Assembly (NCBI RefSeq): GCF_002937075.1
Contig: NZ_NHSJ01000033.1
Span: forward strand, 1-48,563
Origin: Rhodoblastus sphagnicola
Lineage (GTDB): Bacteria > Pseudomonadota > Alphaproteobacteria > Rhizobiales > Beijerinckiaceae
DNA: 48,563 nt
Direction of reading: 5' to 3'
A program made the position numbers and the translations under genes. Of the stretch, positions 3,001-42,598 are shown piece by piece. The notes beneath the pieces were generated by a model. The model had not been told where the DNA came from. It saw nothing but the letters and a program-made list of their open reading frames with translations, and ran no database searches. The stretch's first letter is position 1. Every line of letters starts with the position of its first letter.

Positions 3001-3072
3001 AGCTGGGGCAGGGCGCGCCCTGAAGGCGCGGCGCAAGCAACCCTTCACTGACGAGCAAAAACGAGGACGCTC

Positions 3073-4101: not shown

Positions 4102-4125
4102 CGGGACCGCCTGGAGATCATTCCC

Positions 4126-4809: not shown

Positions 4810-4820
4810 CGGGAGTGAGC

Positions 4821-5759: not shown

Positions 5760-5760
5760 T

Positions 5761-6240
5761 GTGGCGCTCGACAAACCCTATCTCGACGTGCCCGGCACGA
5801 CGATCTTTGACGCGGAACAATCGCGCAAGGGCTATTGGCTCAACCAGTTCTGCACCTCGCTGATGAAGCCGGAGAATCGCGCGCGTTTCCTTGCGGGCGA
5901 GCGCGCCTATCTCGATCAATGGCCCATGAGCGAGCAACAGAAACTGGCGGTGCTGGCGCGAGACCTCAACCGCTGCATCGCGCTCGGCGGCAACATCTAT
6001 TTCCTCGCCCGCATCGGCGCGACCGACGGCAAGAGCTTTCAGCAGATGGCCGGCAGCATGACCGGCATGAGCGAAGAGGAATACCGCGCCATGATGGTGG
6101 CGGGCGGCCGCTCGCCGGAGGGCAACCGAGTCCTCGGCGAGGAGGGCGACGCGCAACCGCACAACCAGCCGCAAGGCGAAGCCAGCCGAATGTTCCGCGA
6201 AGCGGGTTGCTTGGCGCGGGCGAAGAACGGAGGCGCCTGA
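5761..6240 (+). CDS. ligA: protocatechuate 4,5-dioxygenase, alpha subunit (LigA)
   Basis: This is the small helical subunit that caps the active site of the LigAB extradiol dioxygenase. It contains GTTIFDAEQSRKGYWLNQFC and the ALGGNIYFLARIGATDGKSF stretch typical of LigA, and at 159 aa is slightly longer than the 139-aa Sphingobium subunit, with an extended Gly/Gln-rich C-terminus. The start is GTG 5761 after GGAGG at 5751-5755; an overlapping ATG at 5759 is out of frame. The stop codon directly abuts the ATG of ligB at 6241, consistent with coupled synthesis of the two subunits. Confidence 0.9.
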   Translation: MALDKPYLDVPGTTIFDAEQSRKGYWLNQFCTSLMKPENRARFLAGERAYLDQWPMSEQQKLAVLARDLNRCIALGGNIYFLARIGATDGKSFQQMAGSMTGMSEEEYRAMMVAGGRSPEGNRVLGEEGDAQPHNQPQGEASRMFREAGCLARAKNGGA

Positions 6241-7098
<858 letters not shown>

Positions 7099-7106
7099 GG
7101 CTGATC

Positions 7107-8057: not shown

Positions 8058-8125
8058 CGCTTCCTCCCTCTGCGAACGATCCTTTGGGTGCGGCTGAACC
8101 GCACCGATTGCTTGAGGAGAACAGG

Positions 8126-9136: not shown

Positions 9137-9140
9137 AGGC

Positions 9141-9176
9141 CTGGGGCCGCGCCGCAGCCTGCGGGCGCAGGCCTCA
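9141..9176 (+). terminator. hairpin between aldo/keto reductase and second ligA
   Basis: AGGCCTG and CAGGCCT form a 7-bp stem enclosing a GC-rich inner hairpin just after the reductase stop codon. There is no clear U-tract, so it may weaken rather than stop transcription into the second ligAB pair. Confidence 0.4.
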
Positions 9177-9253
9177 ACCTTCGCCATCGCCAGAGCGTTC
9201 GCGCCGCGTATGAACGTTAGAAAAAGAAGCTTCTGACAAAAGGGGAGGACGCC

Positions 9254-9613
9254 TTGAACGCACAGCCGCAGATTTTCGGAACCTATCTTTTCGACGGCGC
9301 CGCCGCACAGCGCGGCTACGCGCTGAACAAGATGTGCTATTCCTTCAACAGCGCCGCCAATCGCGAAGCTTTCCTCGCCGGCGAGGAAGGCTACATGCGC
9401 GCTTACGGTCTGAATGAAGCGCAAGCGCAGGCCATTCGCGCGCGCGACGTTCTGGGCCTGCTGCACGCCGGCGGCAACGTCTATTACCTCGCCAAATTCG
9501 CCGGCATCCTTAAGCTCGACGTGCAGGATCTCGGCGCGGCGCAAACCGGCGTGAGCAAGGATGAATTCAAAGCGCGTCTCGTCGCGCAAAACAATCAGCC
9601 GGATCATCTCTGA
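9254..9613 (+). CDS. second LigA-like extradiol dioxygenase alpha subunit
   Basis: A 119-aa homologue of the LigA at 5761-6240, sharing the FDGAAAQRGYALNKMCYSF and LHAGGNVYYLAKFAGI segments but lacking its long C-terminal extension. The TTG start at 9254 follows a strong AGGGGAGG at 9241-9248. Its catalytic partner follows 25 bp downstream. The pair is separated from the main cluster by a 117-bp gap with a hairpin, so it may have its own promoter. It probably acts on protocatechuate or on a relative such as gallate or 3-O-methylgallate; the sequence does not decide. Confidence 0.82.
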   Translation: MNAQPQIFGTYLFDGAAAQRGYALNKMCYSFNSAANREAFLAGEEGYMRAYGLNEAQAQAIRARDVLGLLHAGGNVYYLAKFAGILKLDVQDLGAAQTGVSKDEFKARLVAQNNQPDHL

Positions 9614-9638
9614 AACGCGATCGCGAAGGATTATCATC

Positions 9639-10493
9639 ATGGCCAGGATTCTCGGCGCCCTCACCACATCCCACGTGCCGGCCATCGGCGGCGCTCTCGC
9701 CCGGGGGGCGCAGGACGAGCCCTATTGGAAGCCATTTTTCGACGGTTTCAAGCCGGTGCGCGCCTGGCTCGACGAAGTGAAGCCCGATGTCGCCGTGGTC
9801 TTCTACAACGATCACGGATTGAATTTTTTCCTCGACAAGCTGCCGACCTTCGCTGTCGGCGCAGCGAAACAATATGTCAATGAGGACGAGGGCTGGGGCA
9901 TCCCGAGCCTGCCCCCGATTCCGGGTATTCCCGAACTGTCGTGGGCGATCATCGAGCGGCTCGTCGCCAGCGATTTCGACGTGACCACTTGCCAGGAAAT
10001 GCTGGTCGACCACGCATTCACCTTGCCGCTGAAACTGTTCTGGCCCGAGACGTTCCAGACCATCGTCACCGTGCCGGTCTGCATCAACACTGTTCAGTTT
10101 CCTCTGCCGAGCGCGAAACGCTGCATCGCGCTGGGTCGGGAGATCGGTGAAGCTGTGGCGGCGTGGAACAGCGACAAGAAGGTGGTGATGGTTGGCTCGG
10201 GCGGCCTCAGCCACCAGCTCGAAGGCGAGCGCGCCGGCTTCATCAACAAGCCCTTCGATCTCGCCTTCATGCGGAGCCTGATCGACGATCCCGAATGGGC
10301 GGCGCAATACACCATTCCGCAGCTTGTCGAAAAGACCGGGACGCAGGGCGTCGAGCTGTTGATGTGGTTGGCCGCGCGCGCCGCCGTGCCGGGCGCCGTG
10401 CGCGAGGTTCACCGCAACTATCACATCCCCATCAGCAATACGGCCGCCGGCACGATGGCGATGGCCGCGAAGGATTTGATCGCGACGGAATGA
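9639..10493 (+). CDS. second LigB-like extradiol dioxygenase catalytic subunit
   Basis: A 284-aa type II extradiol dioxygenase with the same iron and catalytic residues as LigB at 6241: H12 (TSHVPAIG), H59 (YNDHG), SGGLSHQLEG for the catalytic His and GTQGVELLMW for the Glu ligand. Overall it is clearly diverged from the first copy, which suggests substrate specialisation rather than a recent duplication. The start ATG 9639 follows GAAGGA, and a longer in-frame start at 9561 would overlap the alpha subunit gene. It is the last gene of the plus-strand catabolic run; two terminator hairpins follow. Candidate substrates are protocatechuate, gallate or a methoxylated catechol. Confidence 0.85.
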   Translation: MARILGALTTSHVPAIGGALARGAQDEPYWKPFFDGFKPVRAWLDEVKPDVAVVFYNDHGLNFFLDKLPTFAVGAAKQYVNEDEGWGIPSLPPIPGIPELSWAIIERLVASDFDVTTCQEMLVDHAFTLPLKLFWPETFQTIVTVPVCINTVQFPLPSAKRCIALGREIGEAVAAWNSDKKVVMVGSGGLSHQLEGERAGFINKPFDLAFMRSLIDDPEWAAQYTIPQLVEKTGTQGVELLMWLAARAAVPGAVREVHRNYHIPISNTAAGTMAMAAKDLIATE

Positions 10494-12226: not shown

Positions 12227-13408
12227 TCAGCGCGCGGTGGCGGACGTCACGCGCGCAAGCTCGAGACGCAACGGGCTGCGGAAGGTGGAGGAGGGCATCC
12301 AGGGCAGTTGCTCCTGCACGCGCGCGTAATCGGGAACGACCGCGTGGAATTCCTCCATAGCGATGTTCAGCGCGAGGCGCGCGATCGCATTGCCGAGGCA
12401 GGCGTGGACGCCGCCGCCGAAGCCCAGATGTCCTTTGGGGCGACGCGCCAGATCGTAAACATCGGCGTTGGCGAACTGCCGGTCGTCGCGATTGCCCGAT
12501 CCATAGGCGAGGCATACGAAATCGCCCTCGCGCATGGTCTTGCCGTGGATGTCCACGTCACGCGTCAGGCAGCGGCGGAAGCGCTGGCCCGATGTGTTGT
12601 AGCGCAGCGATTCCTCGATGGCGTCCGGAAGCCGGGCCGGATCGGCGACGACCGCGCGGCGCGCGTCGGCGTGGTCGGCGAGATTGAGCGTCAGCATCGA
12701 CATGAAGCCGCCGAGCGACTCGATGCCGGCCATGATCAAGGTCGTGGTGGTCAGCAACACCTCGCGTTCGTCGAGCCGGTCGCCGTCGATTTCAGCCAGG
12801 CTGAAATGCGAGATCAGGTCGTCTTGCGGATTGGCGCGGCGTTCCGCGATCACCTTGGACGCATAGTCCTGCATCCAGGTGTAGGCGGCGATATGCTCCG
12901 GCCCCTTGGTGCGGGTGCGCGGATCTGACTGCACCATCAGCACCGCTTTTTCCCGCACCACCGCTTCATCGCCAAGAGGCAGGCCAAGCGCCGCAAACAG
13001 AACGCGCACCGTAAATTTGGACGTGAAGTCGGCGATGAAATCGAATTGCGCGGAATCCTTGAGGTCGCCGGCGACGTCACGCGCGATGCCTCGGATCGGC
13101 TCAGCGAGTCCTTCCAGATTGCGCTTGAGGAAGGCGCGCTGCACCAGGCCGCGCAGGCGGTCATGCCGTGGCGGATCGGTGGTGCCGAGCGTCGCGCCGG
13201 CGCGGTTGGGCAGTTCCGTCATCAGGTTGCCCTTGGCCGAGGAATAGGTCCGCCAATCGTTCAGCGCCGTCACAATATCGGCGTAGCGCGTCAGCACCCA
13301 GATGTTCGCTTCCTCGCTCCAGTAGCACGGGAAGTCGTCGCGCAGGCGCTTGTAAAAAGGGAAGGGGTCGGCGTCCACCGCCGGCGAATAGGGATCGAAT
13401 GAGAACAT
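12227..13408 (-). CDS. cytochrome P450, candidate aromatic O-demethylase
   Basis: A soluble 393-aa bacterial P450. The haem loop is FGGGVHACLG (residues 330-339, ligand C337) and the K-helix ExxR is E266-R269. The I-helix reads AGIES at 227-231, so the usual acid-Thr pair is Glu-Ser. Ferredoxin and reductase genes follow on the same strand and an AraC regulator precedes it by 78 bp. That gene borders pobA, so the likely substrate is one that yields 4-hydroxybenzoate, such as 4-methoxybenzoate. It does not closely resemble CYP199A or GcoA from memory, so the substrate remains inference. The start ATG 13408 has a strong AGGAGGAG site. Confidence 0.85.
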   Translation of the reverse strand: MFSFDPYSPAVDADPFPFYKRLRDDFPCYWSEEANIWVLTRYADIVTALNDWRTYSSAKGNLMTELPNRAGATLGTTDPPRHDRLRGLVQRAFLKRNLEGLAEPIRGIARDVAGDLKDSAQFDFIADFTSKFTVRVLFAALGLPLGDEAVVREKAVLMVQSDPRTRTKGPEHIAAYTWMQDYASKVIAERRANPQDDLISHFSLAEIDGDRLDEREVLLTTTTLIMAGIESLGGFMSMLTLNLADHADARRAVVADPARLPDAIEESLRYNTSGQRFRRCLTRDVDIHGKTMREGDFVCLAYGSGNRDDRQFANADVYDLARRPKGHLGFGGGVHACLGNAIARLALNIAMEEFHAVVPDYARVQEQLPWMPSSTFRSPLRLELARVTSATAR

Positions 13409-14447: not shown

Positions 14448-15656
<1,209 letters not shown>

Positions 15657-25072: not shown

Positions 25073-25292
25073 AATCCGACGAAATAATGACTATACGCTA
25101 CAAAGCTGACCGTCGAGTATAAGCTCTGACATATTTGATACACATTTGCGTATCTTGGCGCGCCGCGCCGTGAATGGGCCTCGTTCAGGGCGGAGGCGAG
25201 AGGGCGGCTCGGCAGGGCGAACAGTCGCGCGACAAAGCGCGGACAGCTATAACGGCGGCGCGCCGGACGGGAGAGCGCAACAGGAAACCAAT

Positions 25293-26060
25293 ATGAAGAA
25301 GGTCGCTACAGCGGACAGAGTTCTCTCGATCCTTCGTCTGTTTTCTACGGAGCGACCGGAATGGCAGGTGGAGGACCTCGGCGCCGAACTTCAGCTTTCC
25401 GCCAGCACGGCTTACGAATATGTTGGCAGCCTGGTTGGCGCGGGGCTTCTGGTGGCCGGACGCACGGGCCATTACACCATTGGACCCGCCGCAATCGAGC
25501 TTGACCTTATTGCGCGACGAGTCGATCCGCTGACCCGCAACGCGCGCGAAATTCTCCGAAAACTCGTCGAAGAGAGCGGGGCCGGGACCATCGGACTGCT
25601 CTGCCGGCTCTATCAGCTGCAGGTCATGTGCGTTGACGAGTATTCCATCGACCCTCCTCCAATCGAAACGAGCTACGAGCGGGGCCGGCCCATGCCCTTG
25701 ATCCGCGGTTCAGCGTCCAAGGCGATCCTCGTCAATCTGCCGGCGCGGACGCTTCGTCGGTTCTTCGATCTCGAGCGCGAAGCCGTCGCCGCGATGGGGC
25801 TGGGGCGCGACTGGGAGTCGTTCAAGGCGGAGACGCGGCGCCTTCGTCGCAGCGCGCCGCTCGTCAGCATCGGCGAACTCGACGCAGGGGCGCTGGGCGT
25901 CTCCGCGCCCGTGTTCGGCGAGAATGATCTCATCCTCGGGAGCATAGGGCTGGTTTTGTCGGCCGAGGCCGTGCGCGAGGATTCTGCGCGGATCGAGAGT
26001 CTTAGAACGCTTGTGGGCGCCGCCGGGCAAGCGGTGACGCGCGCCCTTCTTGCGCCCTGA
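25293..26060 (+). CDS. IclR-family transcription regulator
   Basis: A 255-aa regulator. The N-terminal winged helix has VEDLGAELQLSASTAYEYVGSLVGAGLL, and the C-terminal GAF-like effector domain includes ERGRPMPLIRGSASKAILVNLP and GVSAPVFGENDLILGSIGLV. IclR proteins often control aromatic ring-cleavage operons in response to pathway acids. ATG 25293 follows AGGAAA; the frame is open to 25146, but that part is Arg/Gly-rich and not family-like. It is followed by a type I extradiol dioxygenase gene with a shared sequence motif in both promoter regions. Confidence 0.85.
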   Translation: MKKVATADRVLSILRLFSTERPEWQVEDLGAELQLSASTAYEYVGSLVGAGLLVAGRTGHYTIGPAAIELDLIARRVDPLTRNAREILRKLVEESGAGTIGLLCRLYQLQVMCVDEYSIDPPPIETSYERGRPMPLIRGSASKAILVNLPARTLRRFFDLEREAVAAMGLGRDWESFKAETRRLRRSAPLVSIGELDAGALGVSAPVFGENDLILGSIGLVLSAEAVREDSARIESLRTLVGAAGQAVTRALLAP

Positions 26061-26168: not shown

Positions 26169-27026
26169 ATGTCTGGAAATCTTCACCACGCGGGCAGAGA
26201 CAAGGACGCTGTCGTCGCCGACTTGCACTATCTTGAAGTCGGCTGTGCAGACGTCGAAAGGAGCGCCCAGTTCTATGAGCGGGCGCTCGGGTTTACTTTC
26301 TCGAAACAGGGCGACGCGTGGATCGGGCGCGGTCCTGATCGTCGGCTCGTTCTGCTTCCGGGCGCTGGCCGCAAGCTGGTGTCTTCGGGTTTTGCCGTCA
26401 CCCGCGAAGCACTCGAACATCTGCGCGAGCGCATCCGCAAGTCAGGCTGGGCTGCAAGCAACGGGCCGACGCGCTTTTTCTCGGATAGCGTCATCGTCCG
26501 CGACCCCGACGGCAATTGCTATGCGTTCGGCATTCCCGAAGCGGAGCAGAGAATCGTCACGGCTCATCCGCAGGCGCGAATGCAACATGTCGTCTCGTCG
26601 AGCCCCAATCCCGCCGCCATTGTCCAGTTTCTGGTGGATGTCGTGGGTTTCAGCGTGACCGACATCGTGCTGGACGACCAGCGCGACATGCGCGTGACGT
26701 TCCTGCGTTGCAATAACGAGCATCACAATGTCGCGGTCTTCAAGGCGGCCGAAAGCCGCTTCGATCATCATTCCTATGAGCTTTCCAGCTGGAATGACAT
26801 TCGCGACTGGGCCGACCATATGGCGCGGGAGCATATTCAGCTCCAGTGGGGTCCCGGCCGTCATGGACCCGGCCACAATCTGTTCATGTTCGTCCACGAT
26901 CCCGATGGCAATTGGATCGAGCTTTCCGCCGATCTCGAAATCATCGGCGAGGGGCGGCCGGTCGGCGAATGGCCGCACGAACACCGGACCTTGAACGAAT
27001 GGGGTCTGGGGCGTTTGCGCAGCTGA
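26169..27026 (+). CDS. type I extradiol (VOC-family) ring-cleavage dioxygenase
   Basis: A 285-aa two-module VOC enzyme like catechol 2,3-dioxygenases and BphC. The C-terminal module keeps all three Fe(II) ligands: H140 (RMQHVVSSSPN), H200 (FDHHSYEL) and E251 (GNWIELSADLE). H236 (GPGHNLFMFVHDPDGN) lies where the active-site histidine is expected. It should open a catechol next to one hydroxyl; the substrate is unknown. ATG 26169 follows GGGAGGAG. It lies alone behind the IclR gene and a palindromic operator and resembles the enzyme at 36881 only distantly. Confidence 0.87.
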   Translation: MSGNLHHAGRDKDAVVADLHYLEVGCADVERSAQFYERALGFTFSKQGDAWIGRGPDRRLVLLPGAGRKLVSSGFAVTREALEHLRERIRKSGWAASNGPTRFFSDSVIVRDPDGNCYAFGIPEAEQRIVTAHPQARMQHVVSSSPNPAAIVQFLVDVVGFSVTDIVLDDQRDMRVTFLRCNNEHHNVAVFKAAESRFDHHSYELSSWNDIRDWADHMAREHIQLQWGPGRHGPGHNLFMFVHDPDGNWIELSADLEIIGEGRPVGEWPHEHRTLNEWGLGRLRS

Positions 27027-30420: not shown

Positions 30421-31245
30421 ATGCCGGTCGTGCTTATCACAGGTTGCAGCTCGGGCTTCGGCGAAGCCCTCGCCCTCGCTTTCGCGACGCACGGGTATCG
30501 GGTGGTCGCGACGCTGCGCAAACCGGAAGCAGCGTCGCCGAAGCTGAAGGCCCTGGCGGATGAAAAGCCGGATGATTTCCTCTTCGCCTCTCTCGATGTC
30601 GCCAGCGCGGCTTCGCGCAAGGCTGCCGTCGATTTCGCGGTCACGCGGTTTGGTCGTCTGGATGTGCTGATCAACAATGCCGGGGTCGGCGCGCGCGGGG
30701 CTTTCGAGGATACGCCGGAAAGCCAGTGGCGGACGATGTTCGACACCAACCTGTTCGGGCCGTTGGAATTGTCCCGCCTCGTCCTGCCGATCATGCGCGC
30801 GCAGGGCGGGGGGCGCATCATCAATGTCACCTCTGTCGCCGCCGTGCTGAAGACGCCGCTGATGGCCGCCTATTGCGCCAGCAAACACGCGCTCGACACG
30901 GCGACCGCAGCGCTGGACATAGAAGCGCGCGGCTTCGGCGTCCGCGCGATCTGCCTGATGCCCGGCCCGTTCAAGACCGCGCTGCCGCAGAAGTCGCTCG
31001 ATCGCGAGGCCAGCGCGCCTTATGCGGCGATCGCCGCGCATTTCAACGCGACCTTCGACGCGATGGAGGCGAAGGCCCCCGAGGATTTGACTCCCGTGAT
31101 CGACGCGGCGCTCGCGGCCGCCACCGACGCCGACCCCGCGCTGCGCTATCCCGCCGGCGTCGACGCGATCCCGATCCTGCCGCCGATCTTGCAGGCTCTC
31201 GCGCCCTTGCAACCGATCGGCCTGCATCTGACCGGCCAGGGCTGA
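30421..31245 (+). CDS. short-chain dehydrogenase/reductase
   Basis: A 274-aa classical SDR. The cofactor motif is TGCSSGFG (residues 7-14), NNAG is at 85-88, and the catalytic residues are S138, Y151 and K155 (YCASK). An Arg following the second strand (TLRKPE) suggests NADP(H). It starts the run SDR, FAH-family enzyme, aldehyde dehydrogenase, benzaldehyde lyase, VOC protein. In that company a role in oxidising a diaryl diol to its alpha-hydroxyketone, or reducing such a ketone, is attractive but unproven. The C-terminus ends in a proline-rich segment (AIPILPPILQALAP). Confidence 0.82.
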   Translation: MPVVLITGCSSGFGEALALAFATHGYRVVATLRKPEAASPKLKALADEKPDDFLFASLDVASAASRKAAVDFAVTRFGRLDVLINNAGVGARGAFEDTPESQWRTMFDTNLFGPLELSRLVLPIMRAQGGGRIINVTSVAAVLKTPLMAAYCASKHALDTATAALDIEARGFGVRAICLMPGPFKTALPQKSLDREASAPYAAIAAHFNATFDAMEAKAPEDLTPVIDAALAAATDADPALRYPAGVDAIPILPPILQALAPLQPIGLHLTGQG

Positions 31246-31279
31246 AGTCAGCTACCTGCACGAGAAGGAAATACCGGGA

Positions 31280-32137
31280 ATGAAGTTAGCCAGTTTCATC
31301 GTCGCTGACCGTTCGAGCTTTGGCCTTGTCGAGAACGACGAGATCGCCGATGTCGGCGCGCTGCTGAAGGATCGCTACGCCGATCTGAAAGCGCTGATCG
31401 CGGACGGCGGCTTTGCGGAGGCGGCGGCGCGCGCGCCCGAGGCGAAACGCATTTCGCTCTCCGACGCCGTGCTGCTGCCGGTCATTCCCAATCCCGGAAA
31501 GATCTTTTGCGTCGGGCATAATTACGAGTCGCATCGGCAGGAGACCGGACGCGCCAAGACGGAGCACCCTTCGATCTTCCTGCGCTTTGCCGACAGCCAG
31601 ACCGGACATGGGCAGAAGCTGCTGCGTCCCGCCGTCTCCACCATGTTCGATTTCGAGGGCGAACTCGCCGTGGTCATCGGCCAGGGCGGGCGCGCCATCG
31701 CGCCGGAGCGCGCGCTCGATCATGTCGCGGGCTATGCCTGTTACAACGACGCCTCGGTGCGCGACTGGCAGTGGCACACCCACCAGTTCACACCCGGCAA
31801 GAATTTTCCCGGGACCGGCGCCTTCGGGCCCTGGCTCGTCACCGCCGACGAAGTCGGCGATCCCGCGCAGCTTTCGGTCACGACGCGGTTGAACGGCGAG
31901 GTCGTGCAGTCGCAGCCAACCGCGGAGATGATTTTCCCAATCCCCGCGATCATCGCCTATGTCTCGCAATTTACGCCGCTTTCGCCGGGCGACGTCATCG
32001 TCACCGGCACGCCCGGCGGTGTCGGCGCCAAGCGTCAGCCGCCGCTGTGGCTGAAGGACGGCGACAGGATCGAAGTCGAGATTCCAAAGGTCGGCCTGCT
32101 CGTCAACACGGTCGAATGCGAGCGCCCCGCCGCGTGA
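31280..32137 (+). CDS. fumarylacetoacetate hydrolase-family enzyme
   Basis: A 285-aa FAH-fold enzyme that needs a divalent metal. Family features are KIFCVGHNYESHRQETG, the metal-binding Glu pair in FDFEGELAVVIG, the Asp in YNDASVRDWQ and the C-terminal VTGTPGGVGAKRQPPLWLKDGD. Such enzymes hydrolyse C-C bonds of acylpyruvates or hydrate/decarboxylate meta-cleavage products, so it may process the product of one of the extradiol dioxygenases. It starts 34 bp after the SDR gene; a second family member is at 39194. The substrate is not deducible. Confidence 0.85.
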   Translation: MKLASFIVADRSSFGLVENDEIADVGALLKDRYADLKALIADGGFAEAAARAPEAKRISLSDAVLLPVIPNPGKIFCVGHNYESHRQETGRAKTEHPSIFLRFADSQTGHGQKLLRPAVSTMFDFEGELAVVIGQGGRAIAPERALDHVAGYACYNDASVRDWQWHTHQFTPGKNFPGTGAFGPWLVTADEVGDPAQLSVTTRLNGEVVQSQPTAEMIFPIPAIIAYVSQFTPLSPGDVIVTGTPGGVGAKRQPPLWLKDGDRIEVEIPKVGLLVNTVECERPAA

Positions 32138-32178
32138 AGGTCGTGAGCGAATCAAACGTGAATCAGTGGGAGATTGCG

Positions 32179-33675
32179 ATGTCGAGTGTCACTCTTGAGA
32201 CCAGCGCCGTAAAAGGCGCTTCGCTGCTCGATCCTGGCGCCTGGGACGGAAAACTGTTCGATGGCGACTGGAAAGCCGCGCCGAAAACCTTCACCGTCCG
32301 CGAACCGGCGACCGGGGAAGCGCTTGGCCAGGTCGGCGCCTCCGATCCCCAGCAGATGGGCGCGACGGTCGCCCGCGCCCGCGAGGCGCAACGCGAATGG
32401 GCCTCCTGGACAGGAGAAAAGCGCGCCGCGGTGATGCGCGAGGCGGCTCGCCTGTTTGAGGCGAACCGCGCGGAGATCGTCGATTGCATCATTCGCGAGA
32501 CCGGCGGCGTGCGCGGCAAGGGCGAAACCGAGATTCAGGGCTCCATCGACGAGCTCTACCATTCGGCCGCGCTGTTGATCCAGCCGGAAGGCGAACTGCT
32601 GCCGAGCCCCAATCCGGCGCGTCTCAGCCTTGCCCGCCGCGTGCCGATCGGCATTGTCGGCGTGATCGCGCCCTGGAACTTTCCGATGCTGCTCGCGATG
32701 CGCTCGGTCGCCCCGGCGATCGCGCTCGGCAACGCCGTGATCCTCAAGCCCGACCCGCAGACCGCGATCGTCGGGGGCGTGGTGATCGCGCGCGTGTTCG
32801 AATCCGCCGGCGTACCCAAGGGCGTGTTCTCCGTCGTCAATGGCGGCGCGGATGTTGGCGAGGCGCTGGTTTCGGCGCCGGGCGTGCGCATGATCACGTT
32901 CACCGGCTCGACGGCTGTCGGTCGGCGCGTCGGCGAACTCGCCGGGCGCAATCTGAAGAAGGTGGCGCTCGAACTTGGCGGCAAGAGCCCGTTCATCGTG
33001 CTCGACGACGCCGATCTCGAAGCCGCGGCTTCGGCGGGCGCCTGGGGCTCCTTCCTGCATCAGGGCCAGATCTGCATGGCGACGGGACGGCACATCGTGC
33101 TGCGCAAGGTCGCCGATCAGTACATCGAACTGCTGGCCAACAAGGCCAAACATCTGCCCGTTGGCGATCCCTTCCGCGCGGAGGTCGCGATCGGCCCGAT
33201 CATGAACGCCAAACAGCTCGAACGGGTGCATCAGATTGTCACCGACACGGTGCAGGCGGGGGCGCAACTCGCCGCTGGCGGCTCCTATGAAGGGCTGTTC
33301 TACAAGCCGACGGTGCTCACTGGGGTTACCGCCGGCATGCCCGCCTATGATCTCGAAATCTTCGGTCCCGTGGCCGCCGTGGTGGTGGTCGAGGATGAGG
33401 AGGAAGCGATCCGCGTCGCCAATGACACGGAATACGGTCTCTCGGGCGCGGTTCAGACCGGCTCGCTCGAGCGCGGCCTGCGCGTCGCGCAGCAGATCCG
33501 CTCCGGCCTCGTGCACATCAACGACCAGACGATCGGCGACATGGCGGGCATTCCCTTCGGCGGCTGCGGCGCCTCGGGCAATGGCTCGCGCTTCGGCTCG
33601 ACGACCAATATCGACGAGTTCACGGAATGGCAGTGGATGACGATCGGCGCCACGCCGACGCGCTATCCGTTCTGA
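32179..33675 (+). CDS. aryl-aldehyde (benzaldehyde-type) dehydrogenase
   Basis: A 498-aa NAD(P)-dependent aldehyde dehydrogenase. Catalytic residues are N167 (APWNFP), E265 (ELGGKSPFIV) and C299 (HQGQICMATGR). The QGQICMATGRHIVL context is that of benzaldehyde and vanillin dehydrogenases. It should oxidise aromatic aldehydes to acids. It stands directly before the benzaldehyde lyase gene, whose product would be its substrate. ATG 32179 gives the normal length; an open frame upstream runs through the FAH gene in another phase. A terminator hairpin follows the stop codon. Confidence 0.88.
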   Translation: MSSVTLETSAVKGASLLDPGAWDGKLFDGDWKAAPKTFTVREPATGEALGQVGASDPQQMGATVARAREAQREWASWTGEKRAAVMREAARLFEANRAEIVDCIIRETGGVRGKGETEIQGSIDELYHSAALLIQPEGELLPSPNPARLSLARRVPIGIVGVIAPWNFPMLLAMRSVAPAIALGNAVILKPDPQTAIVGGVVIARVFESAGVPKGVFSVVNGGADVGEALVSAPGVRMITFTGSTAVGRRVGELAGRNLKKVALELGGKSPFIVLDDADLEAAASAGAWGSFLHQGQICMATGRHIVLRKVADQYIELLANKAKHLPVGDPFRAEVAIGPIMNAKQLERVHQIVTDTVQAGAQLAAGGSYEGLFYKPTVLTGVTAGMPAYDLEIFGPVAAVVVVEDEEEAIRVANDTEYGLSGAVQTGSLERGLRVAQQIRSGLVHINDQTIGDMAGIPFGGCGASGNGSRFGSTTNIDEFTEWQWMTIGATPTRYPF

Positions 33676-33682
33676 CGACACA

Positions 33683-33706
33683 AGGGGCGCCTGAACGGGC
33701 GCCCCT
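33683..33706 (+). terminator. terminator-like hairpin between aldehyde dehydrogenase and benzaldehyde lyase genes
   Basis: AGGGGCGCC and GGCGCCCCT form a perfect 9-bp stem with a 6-nt loop, then CTTG. The U-tract is poor, so it may lower rather than stop expression of the lyase. Confidence 0.55.
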
Positions 33707-33739
33707 CTTGAATTGGTTCATGGTTCTGGAGCGGAATGG

Positions 33740-35449
33740 ATGGCGAGCGGCGGTGAATTGGTGGTGCGCACTTTGCAAGCCGCCGGGGTGGATCGGGTGT
33801 TCGGGCTTCACGGCGCGCATATTGATTCCATCTTCCAGGCGGCGATGGACGCGGGCCTGCCGATTATCGACACGCGCAACGAGGCGACGGCGGGCCATGC
33901 CGCGGAGGGTTACGCCCGCACCGCGCACAAGCTCGGCGTCGCCCTGGTGACGGCGGGGGGCGGCATGACGAATGTCGTGACGCCGCTCGCGCAAGCCTTC
34001 ATGGACCGCACGCCGATCCTGGTGATCGCCGGCTCCGGCCCGATCGGGGACGACGAGACCAACACGCTGCAGGCGACCATCGACCAGGTCGCCATTGCCA
34101 CGCCGATTACCAAATGGGCGCATCGCGTCCGCGCCGCCGACCATATTCCGCGCCTGCTCGCCCAGGCGATCCGCATCGCCAACACCGCGCCGCGCGGGCC
34201 AGTGCTGCTCGATATTCCCTGGGACCTGCTGACGGCGCAGGTCGAGGAGACATCGAAGAGAGAAATCTTCGTCACCGCCGGCAATGCGCTCGGTCCCGAC
34301 GATCAGGCGCGCTGTCTCGACATTCTCGGCAAGGCCAAACGCCCGGTCATCGTGGTCGGCTCTGAGGCGAAGAGGGGCCGGGCGCACGCCGCGCTGAAAA
34401 GGCTGATCGCGAAGACCGGCATTCCCGTGCTCGCCGATTTCGAGGGCCTGAGCACGATCAGCGCGATTCCGCCGAGCCATCGCATCGGGCTGGTGCAGGC
34501 GCTCTGGGGCCTTGGAGTCAAGGGCGAGGCTGGCGCCAAGGGCGAGGCGCCCGACGCCGTGTTGCTGCTCGGCGTGCGCTTCGGCCTCAACACGGCGCAT
34601 GGATCGGGCGCGCTGATCCCGCATGACGCGCGCGTGGCGCAGATCGACCCGGACGGCCGCGAACTCGGTCGCCTGCAAGGCGTCGAACTCGGGATCGCCG
34701 CCGATGTCGCGCCCTCGGTCGCCGCGCTGGCGCAGGCGGCGGAGGCCGTGGACTGGCCCGACTTTTCCATCTGGCGGCAAAGCCTGCGCGCCCACGCCGA
34801 TTTGCGCGTTGAGAAGATCAAGGCCAATACCAAGGCGACGCCCCGCCTGCATCCGTTCGAGGCCTCGCAGGTTCTGGCCCGCCATATCGGCGCCGACACG
34901 ATCGTCGTGGCTGATGGCGCGCTGACCTATCTTTGGCTGAGCGAGGTCATCGCCGACGCCGCCCCGGGCGAATTCCTGTGCCACGGCTATCTCGGCTCGA
35001 TGGGCGTCGGCTTCGGCCTCGCGCTCGGCGCGCAGAGCGTGGGCAAGGGCGATGGCCGCCGCACGATCCTGGTGACCGGGGACGGATCGCTCGGCTTCGC
35101 GCTGGCGGAATTCGACAGCGCCGTGCGTCATGACTTGCCCGTGATCGTCGTGGTGATGAACAACCGCAGTTGGGGCGCGACCCTGCACTTCCAGGAGCTG
35201 GCGGTCGGCCCCAACAGCGTCACCAACACCCGGCTCGACAACGGCTCCTACGATGGCGCGGCCATCGCGCTCGGCGCCGATGGTTATCATGTCGCCACGG
35301 CGGCGGAATTCGACGCCGCGCTGCGCGAAGCCCTGTCGAAGGACAGGCCCGCCTGCATCAATGTCGAAGTCGATCTCGATCCGATCCCGCCGGAGGAAAT
35401 GCTCCTCATCGGCCTCGATCCCTTCAATCCCCCGGAGACAAAAGCGTGA
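33740..35449 (+). CDS. benzaldehyde lyase-like ThDP enzyme
   Basis: A 569-aa thiamine-diphosphate enzyme. It matches, from memory and at high identity, Pseudomonas benzaldehyde lyase, which splits (R)-benzoin and anisoin into two aromatic aldehydes. Shared hallmarks: GGELVVRTL, FGLHGAHID, EGYAR, TLQATIDQVA, ADGALTYLWLSEV, NNRSWGATLHFQ and DPIPPEE. Catalytic positions A28, H29, E50 and Q113 of that enzyme correspond to A26, H27, E48 and Q111 here. The ThDP/Mg motif is GDGS...NN. ATG 33740 follows GGAGCGGA. Flanked by an aryl-aldehyde dehydrogenase gene and, with a 4-bp overlap, a VOC protein gene. Confidence 0.88.
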   Translation: MASGGELVVRTLQAAGVDRVFGLHGAHIDSIFQAAMDAGLPIIDTRNEATAGHAAEGYARTAHKLGVALVTAGGGMTNVVTPLAQAFMDRTPILVIAGSGPIGDDETNTLQATIDQVAIATPITKWAHRVRAADHIPRLLAQAIRIANTAPRGPVLLDIPWDLLTAQVEETSKREIFVTAGNALGPDDQARCLDILGKAKRPVIVVGSEAKRGRAHAALKRLIAKTGIPVLADFEGLSTISAIPPSHRIGLVQALWGLGVKGEAGAKGEAPDAVLLLGVRFGLNTAHGSGALIPHDARVAQIDPDGRELGRLQGVELGIAADVAPSVAALAQAAEAVDWPDFSIWRQSLRAHADLRVEKIKANTKATPRLHPFEASQVLARHIGADTIVVADGALTYLWLSEVIADAAPGEFLCHGYLGSMGVGFGLALGAQSVGKGDGRRTILVTGDGSLGFALAEFDSAVRHDLPVIVVVMNNRSWGATLHFQELAVGPNSVTNTRLDNGSYDGAAIALGADGYHVATAAEFDAALREALSKDRPACINVEVDLDPIPPEEMLLIGLDPFNPPETKA

Positions 35450-35991
35450 AGACTTTCGGTTTCGGCCAGCCGCATGACGGCGTCATCCAGCAGGCCTATG
35501 TCGTGCGCGATCTCGCCGAGGGCATGAAGGAATGGACCGAGTTGCTCGGCATCGGACCCTGGTTCGCGCTGCGCCGCTTCGCCGGCCTCAACCCGCTGTT
35601 TCGCGGCAAGCCCGCTATCGCCCGCGCCGATGTCGCCTTCGCCTTCGCCGGCCATATGCAGATCGAGCTGATCCATCAGCTCGACGAGGAGCCGTCGATT
35701 TATCGTCGGGAAGATGGCGGCCTGAAGGTCGGCTTCCACCACTACGGCATGGGGACCACCGATTTCACCCATGAGGCCGCGCGGCTGGAAAGGCGGGGGT
35801 TTGAGGCGCTGTTCACCGCCGTCGTGCCCTCGGGCGGGCGCGTCGCGGCCTATGACACCAAGGGTTTGCTGCCCGGCATGATCGAATTGATCGAAGCCGA
35901 TGCGATGATGGACGAGATGTTCACCAATATGTATCGCGCCAGTGTCGACTGGGACGGAAGCGACCCGGTTCGCGAGATCAAGATCGCCTGA
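35446..35991 (+). CDS. VOC-family protein (glyoxalase-like)
   Basis: A 181-aa protein of the glyoxalase/methylmalonyl-CoA epimerase group: HDGVIQQAYVVRDLAEGMKEW at the N-terminus, then MQIELIHQLDEEPSIY and FHHYGMGTTDF in the second half, with GMIELIEAD giving the late Glu. H and E positions would suit one metal site. GTG 35446 overlaps the lyase stop codon (GTGA), so it is translationally coupled to benzaldehyde lyase. A role as epimerase or isomerase of the lyase substrate is a possibility; benzoin is chiral and the lyase is R-selective. Function not established. Confidence 0.75.
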   Translation: MKTFGFGQPHDGVIQQAYVVRDLAEGMKEWTELLGIGPWFALRRFAGLNPLFRGKPAIARADVAFAFAGHMQIELIHQLDEEPSIYRREDGGLKVGFHHYGMGTTDFTHEAARLERRGFEALFTAVVPSGGRVAAYDTKGLLPGMIELIEADAMMDEMFTNMYRASVDWDGSDPVREIKIA

Positions 35992-36003: not shown

Positions 36004-36708
36004 TCACTCGACTGTTTGGGGCGGGAACTGCGGCTCAATCGCAGAGATCGCGATGTCCGCCGTGATTCGGAAATGCTGGTTGAGCAGGGCGATGGCGCCG
36101 CTCACGTCGCGCGCGATGACAGCATCCACGATCCGCTGATGTTCGCCTGCGACGTCGCGGGTCGAGCGGTCGTGAAGGACGGCTATGTGCCGGCTGCGGT
36201 CCGCGAGGTCGAAAAGCGTTTCGTGGAACTCACGCAGCCAGTGCGACGGGCAGGCGGCGATCAGAGCGAAATGGAACTGGCGGTGCAACGCCTCCCATTC
36301 TGGATCCGGGCCGATCGAAGTCTCGTGGTAGCGCTTGAGGCGATGATGCGCGAGAACGACGCTTTCCTCCCAGGCGGCGTCGCCGGCGCGGATGGATTCG
36401 CGAATGGCGATTTCGCTGACCCAGCATCGGGTCATCGCCAGTTCGACCAATGTCTCATGAGAAATCAGCGCGATGCGAAAACCACGCTGGTCGATCTTTT
36501 CGACCAGATGAAGCGCCGACAGGCGGTTGAGCGCCTCCCGAAGGGGACTCGCGCCGATGCCGTAGCGCGACTTCAGCGCTTCTATGCGCAGCTTTTCGCC
36601 CGGGGCGATCACGCCCTGCAAAATGTCCGCGCGCAAGCGTTCGAACGCCGACATGTTCAGCGTTGCGCCGACGCTTCCGTCCTCTTGCCTGGTCGATGTC
36701 CGCGCCAT
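36004..36708 (-). CDS. GntR-family regulator with FCD domain
   Basis: A 234-aa regulator. The N-terminal winged helix has LRIEALKSRYGIGASPLREALNRLSALHLVEKIDQRG. The C-terminal FCD domain has ELAMTRCWVSEIAIRES, LHRQFHFALIAACPS and AGEHQRIVDAVIARDVSGAIALLNQH, in which the metal-binding D/H residues lie. ATG 36708 follows GAGGAT; a longer frame from 36786 lacks family features. It is divergent from the extradiol dioxygenase gene at 36881 and convergent with the VOC gene (12 bp between stops). Likely repressor of the 36881-40042 operon, responding to an aromatic acid or ring-cleavage product. Confidence 0.85.
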   Translation of the reverse strand: MARTSTRQEDGSVGATLNMSAFERLRADILQGVIAPGEKLRIEALKSRYGIGASPLREALNRLSALHLVEKIDQRGFRIALISHETLVELAMTRCWVSEIAIRESIRAGDAAWEESVVLAHHRLKRYHETSIGPDPEWEALHRQFHFALIAACPSHWLREFHETLFDLADRSRHIAVLHDRSTRDVAGEHQRIVDAVIARDVSGAIALLNQHFRITADIAISAIEPQFPPQTVE

Positions 36709-36732
36709 ACTCAAATCATCCTCATATCGGCC

Positions 36733-36738
36733 ATTATA
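36733..36738 (-). promoter_or_regulatory. -10 box (TATAAT) of the GntR gene
   Basis: TATAAT is perfect on the minus strand, 24 bp before the GntR start codon. A clear -35 box at the usual spacing is not seen. Confidence 0.4.
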
Positions 36739-36832
36739 AAACCAACCGCAGGTGGCGGCCACAAGCCCGCTTGCAGGCGGGAGCAAAACTGACAGCGGCT
36801 TTTTATCGTTTTTCGCGGTGACGCTGCTAATT

Positions 36833-36880: not shown

Positions 36881-37825
36881 ATGATTTCCATTCAAGACGT
36901 GGTTTATGCCCGCTATCAGGTGGTGAATCTCGATCGCGCCTCTGAGTTCATGCAGGATTTCGGCCTGTTGCCGAGCGCCCGCACGGACAAGGCGCTCTAC
37001 CTGCGCGGCTACGGCGAGAACCACCACGCCTATGTCGCGGAACTTGGGACGGAAAACCGCTCAATCGGCTTCGCCGTGGCGGCCGGGAGCGCCGACGATC
37101 TCGATCGATTTGCCGAAGAGGTCGGCGCGCCGGTGGAGATCATCAACGAGCCGGGCGGCGGCCGGCGCGTCGTCATCACCGACCCCTCGGGCTATCGCGT
37201 CGAGGTCGTCCACGGCATCGAAAAGCTCTCGCCTGCGCCCATGCCGCGCCTGCAGGCGCTGAACTTCGGCGGCCAGCGCGTGCGCGTCAACGATGTCGTG
37301 CGGCCCAAGCCCGGTCCAGCCCATGTGATGCGGCTTGCCCATGTGGCCCTGCACGTGAAGGACATCCGCGAGTCCATCGCCTTTTACGAGAGCCGGTTCG
37401 GCATGAAAATCGCCGACACCTATTACCTCTTCGACGACAAGGAGAAGATGGTTGCCGCATTTCTGCGCTGCGGTCTTGGCGACCAGCTGACCGATCATCA
37501 CACGGTGGCCATGGTCGAACTGCCCAAGCCCGGCTTCGATCATATTTCCTTCGAAGTGCTCAACTGGGACGACATCGTGGTGGGCCACCATCACCTCAAG
37601 GAGCTTGGCAAGTACAAGCACACCTGGGGCGTCGGCCGCCACGTCGATGGCTCGAATGTTTTCGACTACTGGCGTGATCCCTTCGGCAACAAGATCGAAC
37701 ATTTCACCGACGGCGACAGTGTCAACGACCTTTATCCTTCGTCGCACAGCCGGTTCGACCCGACCGATCCGAAGACCCAGCTTTCGGTCTGGGGTCCGCC
37801 GCTCGGCGACGACTTCATGGCCTGA
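36881..37825 (+). CDS. type I extradiol (VOC-family) ring-cleavage dioxygenase, second copy
   Basis: A 314-aa two-module VOC enzyme. Iron ligands: H154 (RLAHVALHVKD), H221 (FDHISFEV) and E273 (NKIEHFTDG). The RDPFGNKIEHF motif and the TYYLFDDKEKMVAAFLRC stretch fit catechol 2,3-dioxygenase/BphC-like enzymes. ATG 36881 follows GGGAG. It starts a compact operon with an MFS carrier and a FAH-family enzyme (36881-40042), a minimal uptake, ring-opening and hydrolysis set. The substrate is unknown. It differs clearly from the copy at 26169. Confidence 0.87.
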   Translation: MISIQDVVYARYQVVNLDRASEFMQDFGLLPSARTDKALYLRGYGENHHAYVAELGTENRSIGFAVAAGSADDLDRFAEEVGAPVEIINEPGGGRRVVITDPSGYRVEVVHGIEKLSPAPMPRLQALNFGGQRVRVNDVVRPKPGPAHVMRLAHVALHVKDIRESIAFYESRFGMKIADTYYLFDDKEKMVAAFLRCGLGDQLTDHHTVAMVELPKPGFDHISFEVLNWDDIVVGHHHLKELGKYKHTWGVGRHVDGSNVFDYWRDPFGNKIEHFTDGDSVNDLYPSSHSRFDPTDPKTQLSVWGPPLGDDFMA

Positions 37826-37885
37826 AGGCGCAGCAAAGCAAGCAATAGACAGGGCGCAACAGTCGCCCCACAGGGAGTGTGCAGC

Positions 37886-39151
37886 ATGGCGGCGGTTGGC
37901 AAGATCGGTGAACGGCGAACGAGCGCGGAATACAGCCGCGACTACGAATTCAAGGCTGTGGGATTGCTCGCCCTCGGCTTCGGCATGGTCGGCCTCGACC
38001 GTTTCATCATCAGCCCGCTGTTTCCGACCATGCAGAAGGAGCTCGGCCTGACCTACCAGGACCTCGGCCTGATCTCCGCCGTGCTGGCGCTGACCTGGGG
38101 CGCGGCTTCGATTTTCTCCGGCCAGATCTCGGACCGCCTTGGCCACAAGCCGGTCATTGTGGTTTCCGCCATCGTCTTCTCCGTGCTGGTGGCGACCACG
38201 GGCCTCGCTGGCGGCCTCCTCAGCCTCGTCGCCCTGCGCGCCATGATGGGCGTCGCGGAAGGCGCCTTCGTGCCCGCGAGCATCACCGCGACCGTGGAAG
38301 CGTCCAAGCCCAGCCGCATCGGCATGAACGTCGGCATCCAGCAGACGGCGGCGCCCTTGTTCGGCCTCGGCTTCGGTCCGCTGATCGCGGTCGCCCTGCT
38401 CAAGGAGTTGCCGAGCTGGCATTACGTGTTTGGCGTGGTCGCCATTCCCGGCTTCATCGTGGCTCTGCTGCTGGCGAAGGTGCTGCGCCACGACCCTCCC
38501 CATTCGGTCGAGGATCACACGGCGGAAAAGTCGATCGGCTTTCTCCACGCGCTGGGCAATCGCAACGTCATTTTCAACATTCTCGGCATGTGCCTCTACC
38601 TCGCGACACTGATCGTGCTGTCGGCCTTCATGCCGAGCTACCTCACCGATCATCTGAAACTGGGCGTCGATGCGATGGGCATGGTCCTCGCCGGCATGGG
38701 GCTTGGCAGCTTCATCGGCATGGTCGCCATCCCCGCCATCTCGGACCGTCTCGGACGCAAGCCGGTGATGCTTGTGAGCCTCGCCGTCGAGTTCGCGGCG
38801 CTGCTGACGCTGATGCAGGTCGGCGCCAGCCCCCTGGCGCTTTTCGCAACGATTTTCGTCGCCACTTTCATGAATGCCGGCGTGGTCGCCATCACGGTCG
38901 GTCCGTTGACCCACGCCTCGGTTCCGCCGGCGATCGCCGCAACGGCGACCGGCCTCGTGGTGGGCGTCGGCGAGATCTTTGGCGGCGCGCTGGCGCCGGT
39001 CGTGGCTGGAGGTCTGGCGGACGCCATGGGTCTGCCGGTCATCATCAAGATCGGCGCGCTGGCGATTGGCCTGGCCTTCTTCGCCGTGCTCTTCGGCGTC
39101 CGCGAGCCCGACATCGGTCTCGAGGCGCATGAGGCGCCGAGCGCCAGCTGA
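37886..39151 (+). CDS. MFS transporter, probable aromatic-acid uptake carrier
   Basis: A 421-aa protein with about twelve membrane helices. SGQISDRLGHKPVIVV and the repeat in the second half, AISDRLGRKPVMLVS, are MFS loop signatures. MMGVAEGAFVPASITATVE and the Asp in GMVGLDRFIISPLFPTM recall the anion/aromatic-acid symporters. ATG 37886 follows AGGGAG. It lies between an extradiol dioxygenase and a FAH-family gene in one operon, so import of the ring substrate is likely. The exact substrate cannot be told. Confidence 0.82.
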   Translation: MAAVGKIGERRTSAEYSRDYEFKAVGLLALGFGMVGLDRFIISPLFPTMQKELGLTYQDLGLISAVLALTWGAASIFSGQISDRLGHKPVIVVSAIVFSVLVATTGLAGGLLSLVALRAMMGVAEGAFVPASITATVEASKPSRIGMNVGIQQTAAPLFGLGFGPLIAVALLKELPSWHYVFGVVAIPGFIVALLLAKVLRHDPPHSVEDHTAEKSIGFLHALGNRNVIFNILGMCLYLATLIVLSAFMPSYLTDHLKLGVDAMGMVLAGMGLGSFIGMVAIPAISDRLGRKPVMLVSLAVEFAALLTLMQVGASPLALFATIFVATFMNAGVVAITVGPLTHASVPPAIAATATGLVVGVGEIFGGALAPVVAGGLADAMGLPVIIKIGALAIGLAFFAVLFGVREPDIGLEAHEAPSAS

Positions 39152-39193: not shown

Positions 39194-40042
39194 ATGAAGC
39201 TCGCCCGTTTCACGCGCGATGGAAAGACCGCGATCGGCAAGGTCGATGGCGACCGGATCGTCGACCTGTCCGCCGTCACCAAAGGCTGCGATTCCATGCG
39301 CCGATTCCTGACGGACCTGCCGGCCCTGAAGGGAGAGGCGGAGGCGGTTTCCGAGCCGGCCTATCCGCTCGCTTCGGTGCATATCGAGGCGCCGATTGAC
39401 GATCCCCAGAAATTTCTCGGCATCGGCATGAACTATCAGGCGCATGCCGACGAGGCCGCGAAGGCGGGCATTCCGATCCCGAAAACGCAATTGTGGTTCA
39501 ACAAGCAGGTGAGCTGCATCGCGGGGCCGACAGACAAGGTCGTTCTGCCCTCCGTGTCCGACCAGCTCGATTACGAAGGCGAGCTCGCCTATGTCATCGG
39601 CACGCGTTGCCGGCAGGTCAAGCGCGAAGACGCGCTGTCGGTGATCGCTGGCTATCTGGTTTGCAACGATTTCTCGGTGCGCGACTGGCAGCATCGTTCC
39701 CCGACCTACACGCTCGGAAAATCGTTCGACACTCATGGCGTGATTGGCCCCTGGATCACCACCGCCGATGACGTCGCCAATGCCCAGAACCTGCGGCTGC
39801 GACTGTTCGTGAACGGCAAGGAAAAGCAGAGCAGCCTGACCGACGACCTGATTTACAAAATTGAGGACCAGATCGCGCATCTGAGCACGGTGATGACCCT
39901 GGAGCCGGGCGACCTCATCACCACCGGCACGCCGGCGGGCGTCGCCGCCGTCGATCAAAGCTGGCTCAAGCCGGGCGACGTGGTCCGGGTCGAGATCGAT
40001 GGCCTCGGCGCCATCGAGAACACCATTGTCGCGGAAGTCTGA
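39194..40042 (+). CDS. fumarylacetoacetate hydrolase-family enzyme, second copy
   Basis: A 282-aa FAH-fold enzyme with FLGIGMNYQAHADEAAKAG, the metal-binding LDYEGELAYVIG and NDFSVRDWQHRSPTYTLGKSFD, and the C-terminal TTGTPAGVAAVDQSWLKPGDVV. These resemble 2-hydroxyhepta-2,4-diene-1,7-dioate isomerase/5-oxopent-3-ene decarboxylase-like members more than true fumarylacetoacetase. ATG 39194 follows GGAGGA. It closes the operon with the dioxygenase at 36881 and probably handles its product. It is a diverged paralogue of 31280-32137. Confidence 0.85.
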   Translation: MKLARFTRDGKTAIGKVDGDRIVDLSAVTKGCDSMRRFLTDLPALKGEAEAVSEPAYPLASVHIEAPIDDPQKFLGIGMNYQAHADEAAKAGIPIPKTQLWFNKQVSCIAGPTDKVVLPSVSDQLDYEGELAYVIGTRCRQVKREDALSVIAGYLVCNDFSVRDWQHRSPTYTLGKSFDTHGVIGPWITTADDVANAQNLRLRLFVNGKEKQSSLTDDLIYKIEDQIAHLSTVMTLEPGDLITTGTPAGVAAVDQSWLKPGDVVRVEIDGLGAIENTIVAEV

Positions 40043-42417: not shown

Positions 42418-42598
42418 CTAAGAATGCTCTTGGCAAAGCTCGGTGTAGCTTCATTCAGGCGATGGAAGCGACGGGCCGCATTGATCGAACGCAAAGTTGA
42501 GAAAATGATTTGGGCCTCTTCTTATAAAGTGACAGCTCGTTTTTTTTGTCTCCAATATGTACTTACCTATTCATCAACAATAATCGTTGGAGCGCCCC

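Follow-up and report, generated by a model that had tools for sequence, protein, structure and literature searches.

Benzaldehyde lyase (BAL) is a widely used biocatalyst and, to our knowledge, the partners that accompany it in natural pathways are poorly known. Which reactions surround this enzyme in a bacterium that carries its gene? The question is raised by contig NZ_NHSJ01000033.1 of Rhodoblastus sphagnicola (48,563 nucleotides, analysed as a whole and referred to below as the window; contig C33 of a 5.09-Mb genome of 141 contigs). Positions 30421-35991 contain five plus-strand genes, encoding a short-chain dehydrogenase/reductase (SDR), a fumarylacetoacetate-hydrolase (FAH) family protein, an aldehyde dehydrogenase (ALDH), a thiamine diphosphate (ThDP)-dependent enzyme and a small vicinal oxygen chelate (VOC) protein. 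The ThDP enzyme is by sequence a BAL, and the block is probably a catabolic module for aromatic acyloins, of the benzoin or the 2-hydroxy-1-arylalkanone kind. Its features are as follows:

30421..31245, + strand: SDR, classical dehydrogenase, proposed alcohol-to-acyloin oxidase (PF00106, 179.7 bits)
31280..32137, + strand: FAH31, FAH-family protein (PF01557, 231 bits)
32179..33675, + strand: ALDH, aryl-aldehyde dehydrogenase by its matches (402 bits to 4-hydroxybenzaldehyde dehydrogenase 9jw2)
33683..33706, + strand: hairpin directly 3' of the ALDH gene (10-bp stem; fold of the region -24.2 kcal/mol, z -2.45)
33740..35449, + strand: BAL (737.8 bits to 3d7k; 62.5% identity to Pseudomonas BAL)
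35446..35991, + strand: VOC35, small VOC protein, proposed acyloin racemase or isomerase (PF13669, 56 bits)

The intergenic gaps from the SDR gene to the VOC35 gene are 34, 41, 64 and -4 bases, the last value reflecting a 4-base overlap of the VOC35 start with the BAL stop codon. A preliminary description of this DNA had placed an SDR and an aryl-aldehyde dehydrogenase upstream of the BAL and a VOC protein across its stop codon; every gene it named was located, but it overlooked FAH31, which lies between the SDR and ALDH genes, and also the VOC, FAH and major facilitator superfamily (MFS) genes that flank the operon on both sides.

Identity of the ThDP enzyme

A phmmer search of solved structures clearly indicated the relationship of the ThDP enzyme to BAL. 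It matched 3d7k with 737.8 bits and 2ag0 with 736 bits, both of which we take to be the enzyme of Pseudomonas fluorescens, followed by formolase 4qpz (728 bits) and the ThDP-binding protein 8y8m/8y7s (628 bits), other groups reaching at most 195 bits among the best 60 of 149 matches. The ThDP-enzyme domains PF02776, PF00205 and PF02775 were all found above cut-off over the full length of the protein. Identity to Pseudomonas BAL is 62.5%; the residues A26, H27, E48 and Q111 correspond to A28, H29, E50 and Q113 of that enzyme, and 23 of the 24 active-site and cofactor positions compared, which beyond these four were our own selection, are identical, the sole change being I555 to L. The phylogenetic tree united the window protein, its counterpart from Methylocella silvestris TVC (also an alphaproteobacterium of the Beijerinckiaceae), three proteins of bog metagenome-assembled genomes (MAGs) and Pseudomonas BAL in one clade with a support of 0.998, in agreement with the bit scores; a protein encoded by a plasmid of Rhodococcus erythropolis R138 (50-51% identity) was placed just outside this clade (support 0.999). 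The outgroups were the paralogues of the same genome, one Arthrobacter protein and a group of ThDP enzymes 36-42% identical to the BAL, with no named acetolactate synthases among them. All nine members of the latter group (loci L009-L015, L045 and L046) have Gly in place of A28 and Met in place of A480, and on this evidence they should not be called BAL; a fourth plasmid match, from Cupriavidus, was not among the loci compared.

It is extremely improbable that the protein is just another acetolactate-synthase-like ThDP enzyme with a function unrelated to BAL. NCBIfam does rank acetolactate synthase models first, but the best of them scored 288 bits against a cut-off of 587, and the best 25 of 52 models all remained below their cut-offs, while the BAL structures score 737 bits; the three ThDP paralogues of the same genome are just 23-25% identical, and the A28-H29 pair is seen in none of them, one having a gap at that place. 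The acetolactate synthase identity is contradicted by the structure scores, the NCBIfam cut-offs, the residues and the tree. By sequence, the product of 33740-35449 is a benzaldehyde lyase; the preliminary description, which had named a BAL-type enzyme and called for a comparison with acetolactate synthases, is borne out, since the scores, residues and tree position group the protein with BAL and not with acetolactate or oxalyl-CoA enzymes.

The likeness to the Pseudomonas enzyme (identity, residues and common clade) leads one to expect like cleavage chemistry. The strain from which Pseudomonas BAL was obtained degrades and grows on anisoin, and a BAL with a catabolic role is therefore no novelty; the difference is that the BAL of the window sits in a module of SDR, FAH, ALDH and VOC genes, the context of the Pseudomonas gene not having been seen. 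Passages of PMC9557007 describe ReBAL, the BAL of R. erythropolis R138, as cleaving (R)-benzoin reversibly. Judging by the strain, the R138 plasmid protein adjacent to the BAL clade is presumably ReBAL; it is unlike the clade at the positions of Y397, G419, S477 and F484 and has different neighbours, with Rieske, VanB-type and aldehyde dehydrogenase genes within 6 kb, an FAD monooxygenase annotated near, and hxlA and hxlB in the same locus.

Recurrence of the gene set

Four loci were found to encode a BAL at least 71% identical to that of the window: the window itself, L016 of M. silvestris TVC, and L017 and L018 of the bog MAGs G931 and G932. A list of 34 window genes was compared with these loci, taking one best match per gene per locus at an E-value of 1e-8. 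SDR, ALDH, BAL and VOC35 occur together in all four loci, which represent two proteobacterial classes, and on this point the preliminary description is supported. The recurrence of the four genes in two classes and in two gene orders supports their interpretation as one acyloin-cleaving catabolic module: the order is SDR-FAH-ALDH-BAL-VOC in the window and in TVC, and ALDH-SDR-BAL-VOC in the two bog loci. Further genes of the window belong to this comparison:

25290..26060 (ORF 25146-26060, start not fixed), + strand: IclR-type regulator (PF09339, PF01614)
26169..27026, + strand: VOC26, extradiol-dioxygenase-like, Phe at the catalytic Tyr position (residue comparison)
36004..36786, - strand: GntR-type regulator, family named by eye (88% relative at the equivalent place in L016)
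36881..37825, + strand: VOC36, two-domain, type I extradiol-dioxygenase-like (PF00903; 88% in L016)
37877..39151, + strand: MFS transporter, possibly for uptake (below-cut-off matches to organic-acid/aromatic-acid MFS models; 81% in L016)
39194..40042, + strand: FAH39, second FAH-family protein (PF01557, 235 bits)

In TVC, the five genes of the block follow in the same order with 86-92% identity (SDR 90%), and the GntR, VOC36, MFS and FAH39 (89%) genes come after them as in the window. Both bog loci have the order FAH39 (63%), VOC26 (39%), ALDH (73-74%), SDR (58%), BAL (71-72%), VOC35 (71%) and a further FAH gene (36-40%). The sequences of L017 and L018 are 96% identical over approximately 6.6 kb, comprising the module and at least 0.76 kb past it. 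In the 2 kb examined ahead of the module, by contrast, the alignment is limited to about 124 bases, a pattern that suggests inheritance or transfer of the block as a unit. The contig of G931 carries a second BAL gene about 20 kb from the first (L037:10212-11945), whose product is 60% identical to the window BAL and 66% to that of Pseudomonas; its neighbours are relatives of IclR (43%), FAH31 (54%) and VOC26 (48%) and an FAD-binding monooxygenase, and no match to SDR30 (the SDR) or VOC35 was found in the 20-kb stretch of L037. VOC26-like and FAH genes adjoin both BAL genes of this contig.

The BAL clade is rare in the sampled genomes. Proteins more than 80% identical were found in two of the 199 genomes of the family (the own genome and one that is evidently TVC), two more having the 38% type; among 385 genomes of the class, five besides the own genome matched at 1e-90, all at 38-42%; among 398 genomes of the phylum, the own genome was the sole match at 1e-95, and G931, with its two copies, was the sole match at 1e-120 among 196 genomes of its order. 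A scan of 84,980 species genomes, made with the single BAL protein in a mode that detects close relatives only, revealed the TVC protein (86%), those of two bog Gammaproteobacteria MAGs (72% and 71%) and one protein of 29% identity.

A hairpin is predicted directly 3' of the ALDH gene in all four loci (L016 9925-9990, L017 9100-9168 and L018 9098-9168, found by folding), and its sequences are unrelated between the window, TVC and the bog. The z-scores are modest (-2.45 in the window, -3.64 in L016, -2.15 in L017 and -2.37 in L018), with 3, 1, 7 and 3 of 200 shuffles, respectively, folding equally well; a terminator scan did not list the window hairpin. The gene behind it is that of BAL in the window and TVC and that of the SDR in the bog loci. 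The element may serve for attenuation, weak termination or mRNA processing, and its position behind ALDH means that equal co-transcription of BAL with the preceding genes is not certain.

Two side observations concern the surroundings of the BAL genes. GntR-like proteins encoded at 23687-24943 and 40303-41601 (418 and 432 aa), judged by eye to be paralogues, bracket the BAL region of the window. Genes of the DUF6152 and DUF6644 types and of a secreted-looking family with a WEGDTLV motif recur near BAL loci in both bacterial classes (window 28981-30314 and 42587-43644; L017 19882-21121; L042 4376-8553).

The partner proteins

The best matches of the ALDH were 4-hydroxybenzaldehyde dehydrogenase 9jw2, its best solved relative (402 bits), then benzaldehyde, salicylaldehyde and vanillin dehydrogenases, with succinate-semialdehyde types scoring lower, and the cysteine motif GQICM and the glutamate motif LELGGK are present in all four loci. 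These matches and motifs indicate that the enzyme is of the aryl-aldehyde type, as had been described. The SDR has the TG motif and YCASK in all four loci. No NCBIfam model was above cut-off for the ALDH (best 25 of 45 models), the SDR (best 25 of 217) or the MFS transporter (best 25 of 48).

The only significant solved relative of VOC35 was 3gm5, a weak match of 55-58 bits. Q15, E74, H98, H99 and E147 are invariant in the four orthologues, and 3gm5 has Q, E, HH and E in the corresponding columns; by this alignment alone, VOC35 may have Q, E, H and E at ligand-type positions, perhaps in the manner of the VOC proteins of the glyoxalase I and methylmalonyl-CoA epimerase kind. Such a set resembles that of human glyoxalase I, although the methylmalonyl-CoA epimerase 1jc4 itself matched VOC35 only with an E-value of 0.58. 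Glyoxalase I chemistry passes through an enediolate, and the racemisation of an acyloin would run through such an intermediate as well. A relative of VOC35 at 1e-20 occurs in 23 of the 199 family genomes, only the two that adjoin BAL exceeding 44% (21 of the 23 are at or below it); the 58 plasmid records with a match all stay under 60%, and relatives above 70% were seen next to BAL only. Distant relatives (41-43%) occur in other settings, and the two annotated loci have no annotated BAL neighbour; one adjoins acyl-CoA dehydrogenase and flavin reductase genes, the other an SDR gene, with a gene for a ThDP-binding protein about 7.6 kb away, and the record of a third such relative carries no annotation.

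VOC36 matches the H, H and E ligands and the second-shell His and Tyr of catechol 2,3-dioxygenase. In place of the catalytic Tyr, VOC26 has Phe in the window and in L037 (48% identity) and Met in L017 and L018 (39% each). Against the HpaD model, whose cut-off is 321 bits, VOC36 scored 97 and VOC26 94.7 bits, and no other model reached its cut-off. FAH31 and FAH39 resemble HpaG/HpcE and diketo-acid hydrolases; the solved relatives of FAH31 include an FAH-family protein, HpaG/HpcE and 2,4-diketo-3-deoxyrhamnonate hydrolase. It is plausible that the VOC dioxygenase and the FAH proteins form a ring-cleavage route inside the cluster.

Proposed function and alternatives

The proposed module would work as follows. 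The SDR would oxidise an aryl 1,2-diol or a secondary alcohol to the acyloin, and VOC35 might interconvert the stereo- or regioisomers of the acyloin through an enediolate, such that all the material could enter the lyase, reported to be R-specific. BAL would then cut between the carbonyl and carbinol carbons with the help of ThDP, releasing two aldehydes, a step for which the homology is strong, and the ALDH, in accordance with its subfamily, would convert the aryl aldehyde or aldehydes to benzoates. The benzoates may pass to ring cleavage by the VOC36 and FAH proteins of the cluster or by the PobA and lig-type proteins encoded elsewhere in the window, and the MFS protein may import the substrate. 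A more specific version appears rather unlikely: that VOC35 acts as an acyloin racemase or ketol isomerase by way of an enediolate, as glyoxalase I does, and that the SDR-BAL-ALDH-VOC35 cassette would convert racemic benzoins or 1,2-diaryl diols completely to aryl carboxylates, moving between proteobacterial classes as a unit. We know of no enzyme assigned as an acyloin racemase or ketol isomerase in this setting.

Several points weigh against the assignment of the block to acyloin catabolism. L017 and L018 are near-duplicates, and the four loci amount to about two lineages; two other loci of the BAL clade, L037 and L020, have no VOC35 match at 1e-8 and an SDR match of 25% at most. Locus L045, on a plasmid of R. 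erythropolis BG43, encodes a 36% ThDP enzyme annotated near ALDH, SDR, FAH, FAD monooxygenase and MFS genes; the presence of a like set around a ThDP enzyme that is not BAL weakens the notion that the combination of gene families is special to BAL. The structure model of VOC35, based on four sequences, has a pLDDT of 35.6, leaving the active site to be read from the sequence alone. Moreover, the VOC and FAH genes may be there for a different substrate, and the hairpin may separate the expression of BAL from that of ALDH in the window and in TVC.

As to the substrate, it is possible, though clearly less probable than acyloin breakdown as such, that the natural one is an aryl-alkyl acyloin of the C6-C3 or C6-C2 kind, e.g., a 2-hydroxy-1-arylpropanone derived from phenylpropanoid side chains, rather than a diaryl benzoin; BAL would then yield one aryl and one short aldehyde. 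BAL is known to act on 2-hydroxy-1-phenylpropanone, and in the TVC locus the hypothetical gene h29 is separated from the SDR gene by genes for a flavoprotein similar to p-cresol methylhydroxylase and vanillyl-alcohol oxidase (449 bits to 9h40 and 357 bits to eugenol oxidase 5fxd) and a cytochrome c, the two at L016:830-2925, and for a SnoaL-type protein. Enzymes of this flavoprotein type oxidise the benzylic carbon of 4-alkylphenols, and by analogy the TVC flavoprotein would supply substrates to the SDR and BAL, either aryl-alkyl or diaryl, that carry a free para-phenol. The other three BAL genomes have relatives of the flavoprotein of 43-46% at best, one in G932 (43%) being encoded on the contig that carries BAL, at a distance of about 32 kb; however, the oxidase adjoins the module in TVC only, no candidate emerged for a gene that would deal with the short aldehyde, and the compared residues equal those of the Pseudomonas BAL, which comes from the anisoin-degrading strain. 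The TVC SnoaL-type protein was also considered as a relative of a lignin beta-1 lyase, a candidate rejected on finding just weak limonene-epoxide-hydrolase matches among solved structures. A very unlikely alternative would make BAL a carboligase that joins aldehydes or, like formolase, fixes formaldehyde in a facultative methylotroph. The match to formolase 4qpz, the close relative in Methylocella and the hxlA and hxlB genes of the Rhodococcus plasmid locus would fit such a role, yet the aryl-ALDH, VOC and FAH partners fit breakdown, the bog gammaproteobacterial MAGs have the same module, and the formaldehyde genes of Rhodococcus are explicable by O-demethylation.

The preliminary description went further and joined the operon to genes in the left part of the window in one chain, in which hydrobenzoin or anisoin would be taken to anisaldehyde and anisate, demethylated by a P450, hydroxylated by PobA and cleaved by the lig-type enzymes:

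1882..10493, + strand: lig-type (protocatechuate 4,5-cleavage) genes, context (three of the six genes scanned above a cut-off)
12227..13408, - strand: P450, CYP203A-like, context gene (660 bits to 8fbc)
14475..15656, + strand: PobA, 4-hydroxybenzoate 3-monooxygenase, context gene (TIGR02360, 690.9 bits against a cut-off of 538.7)

PobA and the lig-type genes are indeed present, those above cut-off encoding 4-oxalomesaconate tautomerase, LigK and a class III extradiol dioxygenase and the putative LigJ, LigI and LigC genes remaining below theirs; the P450 did not stand as an anisate demethylase. CYP199A is the P450 type known for anisate, and no entry labelled CYP199A occurred among the best 60 of 406 matches, many of which are generically named; the window P450 scored 660 bits to 8fbc against 190 bits for the next entry. 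Passages of PMC11334723 and PMC7780096 identify 8fbc as P450-T2 of the CYP203A subfamily, 73% identical to CYP203A1, and report that CYP203A1 binds 4-hydroxybenzoate among others; no demethylation by CYP203A appears in these passages. The CYP199A assignment was rejected as named, the nearest enzyme being 8fbc, and the likeness is to P450-T2 and CYP203A1.

The complete chain is unlikely. All its gene types lie on one 48.6-kb contig, in L017 a 75% relative of the P450 follows the VOC35 gene at a distance of 2.2 kb, PobA occurs in all four BAL genomes (92% identical in TVC), and the R138 relative of BAL lies near Rieske and VanB-type genes. On the other hand, the P450 is absent at 1e-30 from TVC, which has the full operon, and of the 15 family genomes (among 199) with the P450 at 1e-120 only the own genome has BAL, the other 14 showing no BAL match at 1e-100; in G932, a 77% relative of the P450 is located next to an AraC gene on a contig other than that of BAL. 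PobA shares the BAL contig in the window only, and its presence is not informative, since 108 of the 199 family genomes encode it at 1e-100; LigB-type genes are found in all four BAL genomes, with no background count. No conserved linkage of BAL to PobA and the lig genes emerged from the four BAL genomes. With a CYP203A-like P450 that is missing from TVC and mostly occurs without BAL elsewhere, and with no conserved link to PobA, the chain is not supported in the form described. The nine other sampled genomes of the genus had no match to BAL, the P450, PobA or VOC35 at the thresholds used, and this absence suggests that the BAL cluster and the P450/PobA cluster were both acquired in the lineage of this strain. 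The class III (LigB-type) extradiol dioxygenase genes of the left cluster, 6241-7098 and 9561-10493, are different from each other (44% identity).

Acyloin catabolism through the module itself is still the probable reading. The literature on BAL and benzoin breakdown, covered mostly by titles and the beginnings of abstracts and with most subscription journals outside it, yielded no account of a BAL gene cluster or of the partners seen here; passages of PMC9557007, PMC12247030, PMC11672146 and PMC13327070 describe no BAL gene cluster. If ring cleavage does proceed inside the cluster, PobA and the lig genes would be unnecessary for at least one product, and a VOC acyloin racemase, if true, would be useful for recycling or resolving benzoins. 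With the conserved set of SDR, aryl-ALDH, BAL and VOC genes there are now specific candidates for the reactions that precede and follow the lyase, and the natural role of BAL becomes testable.

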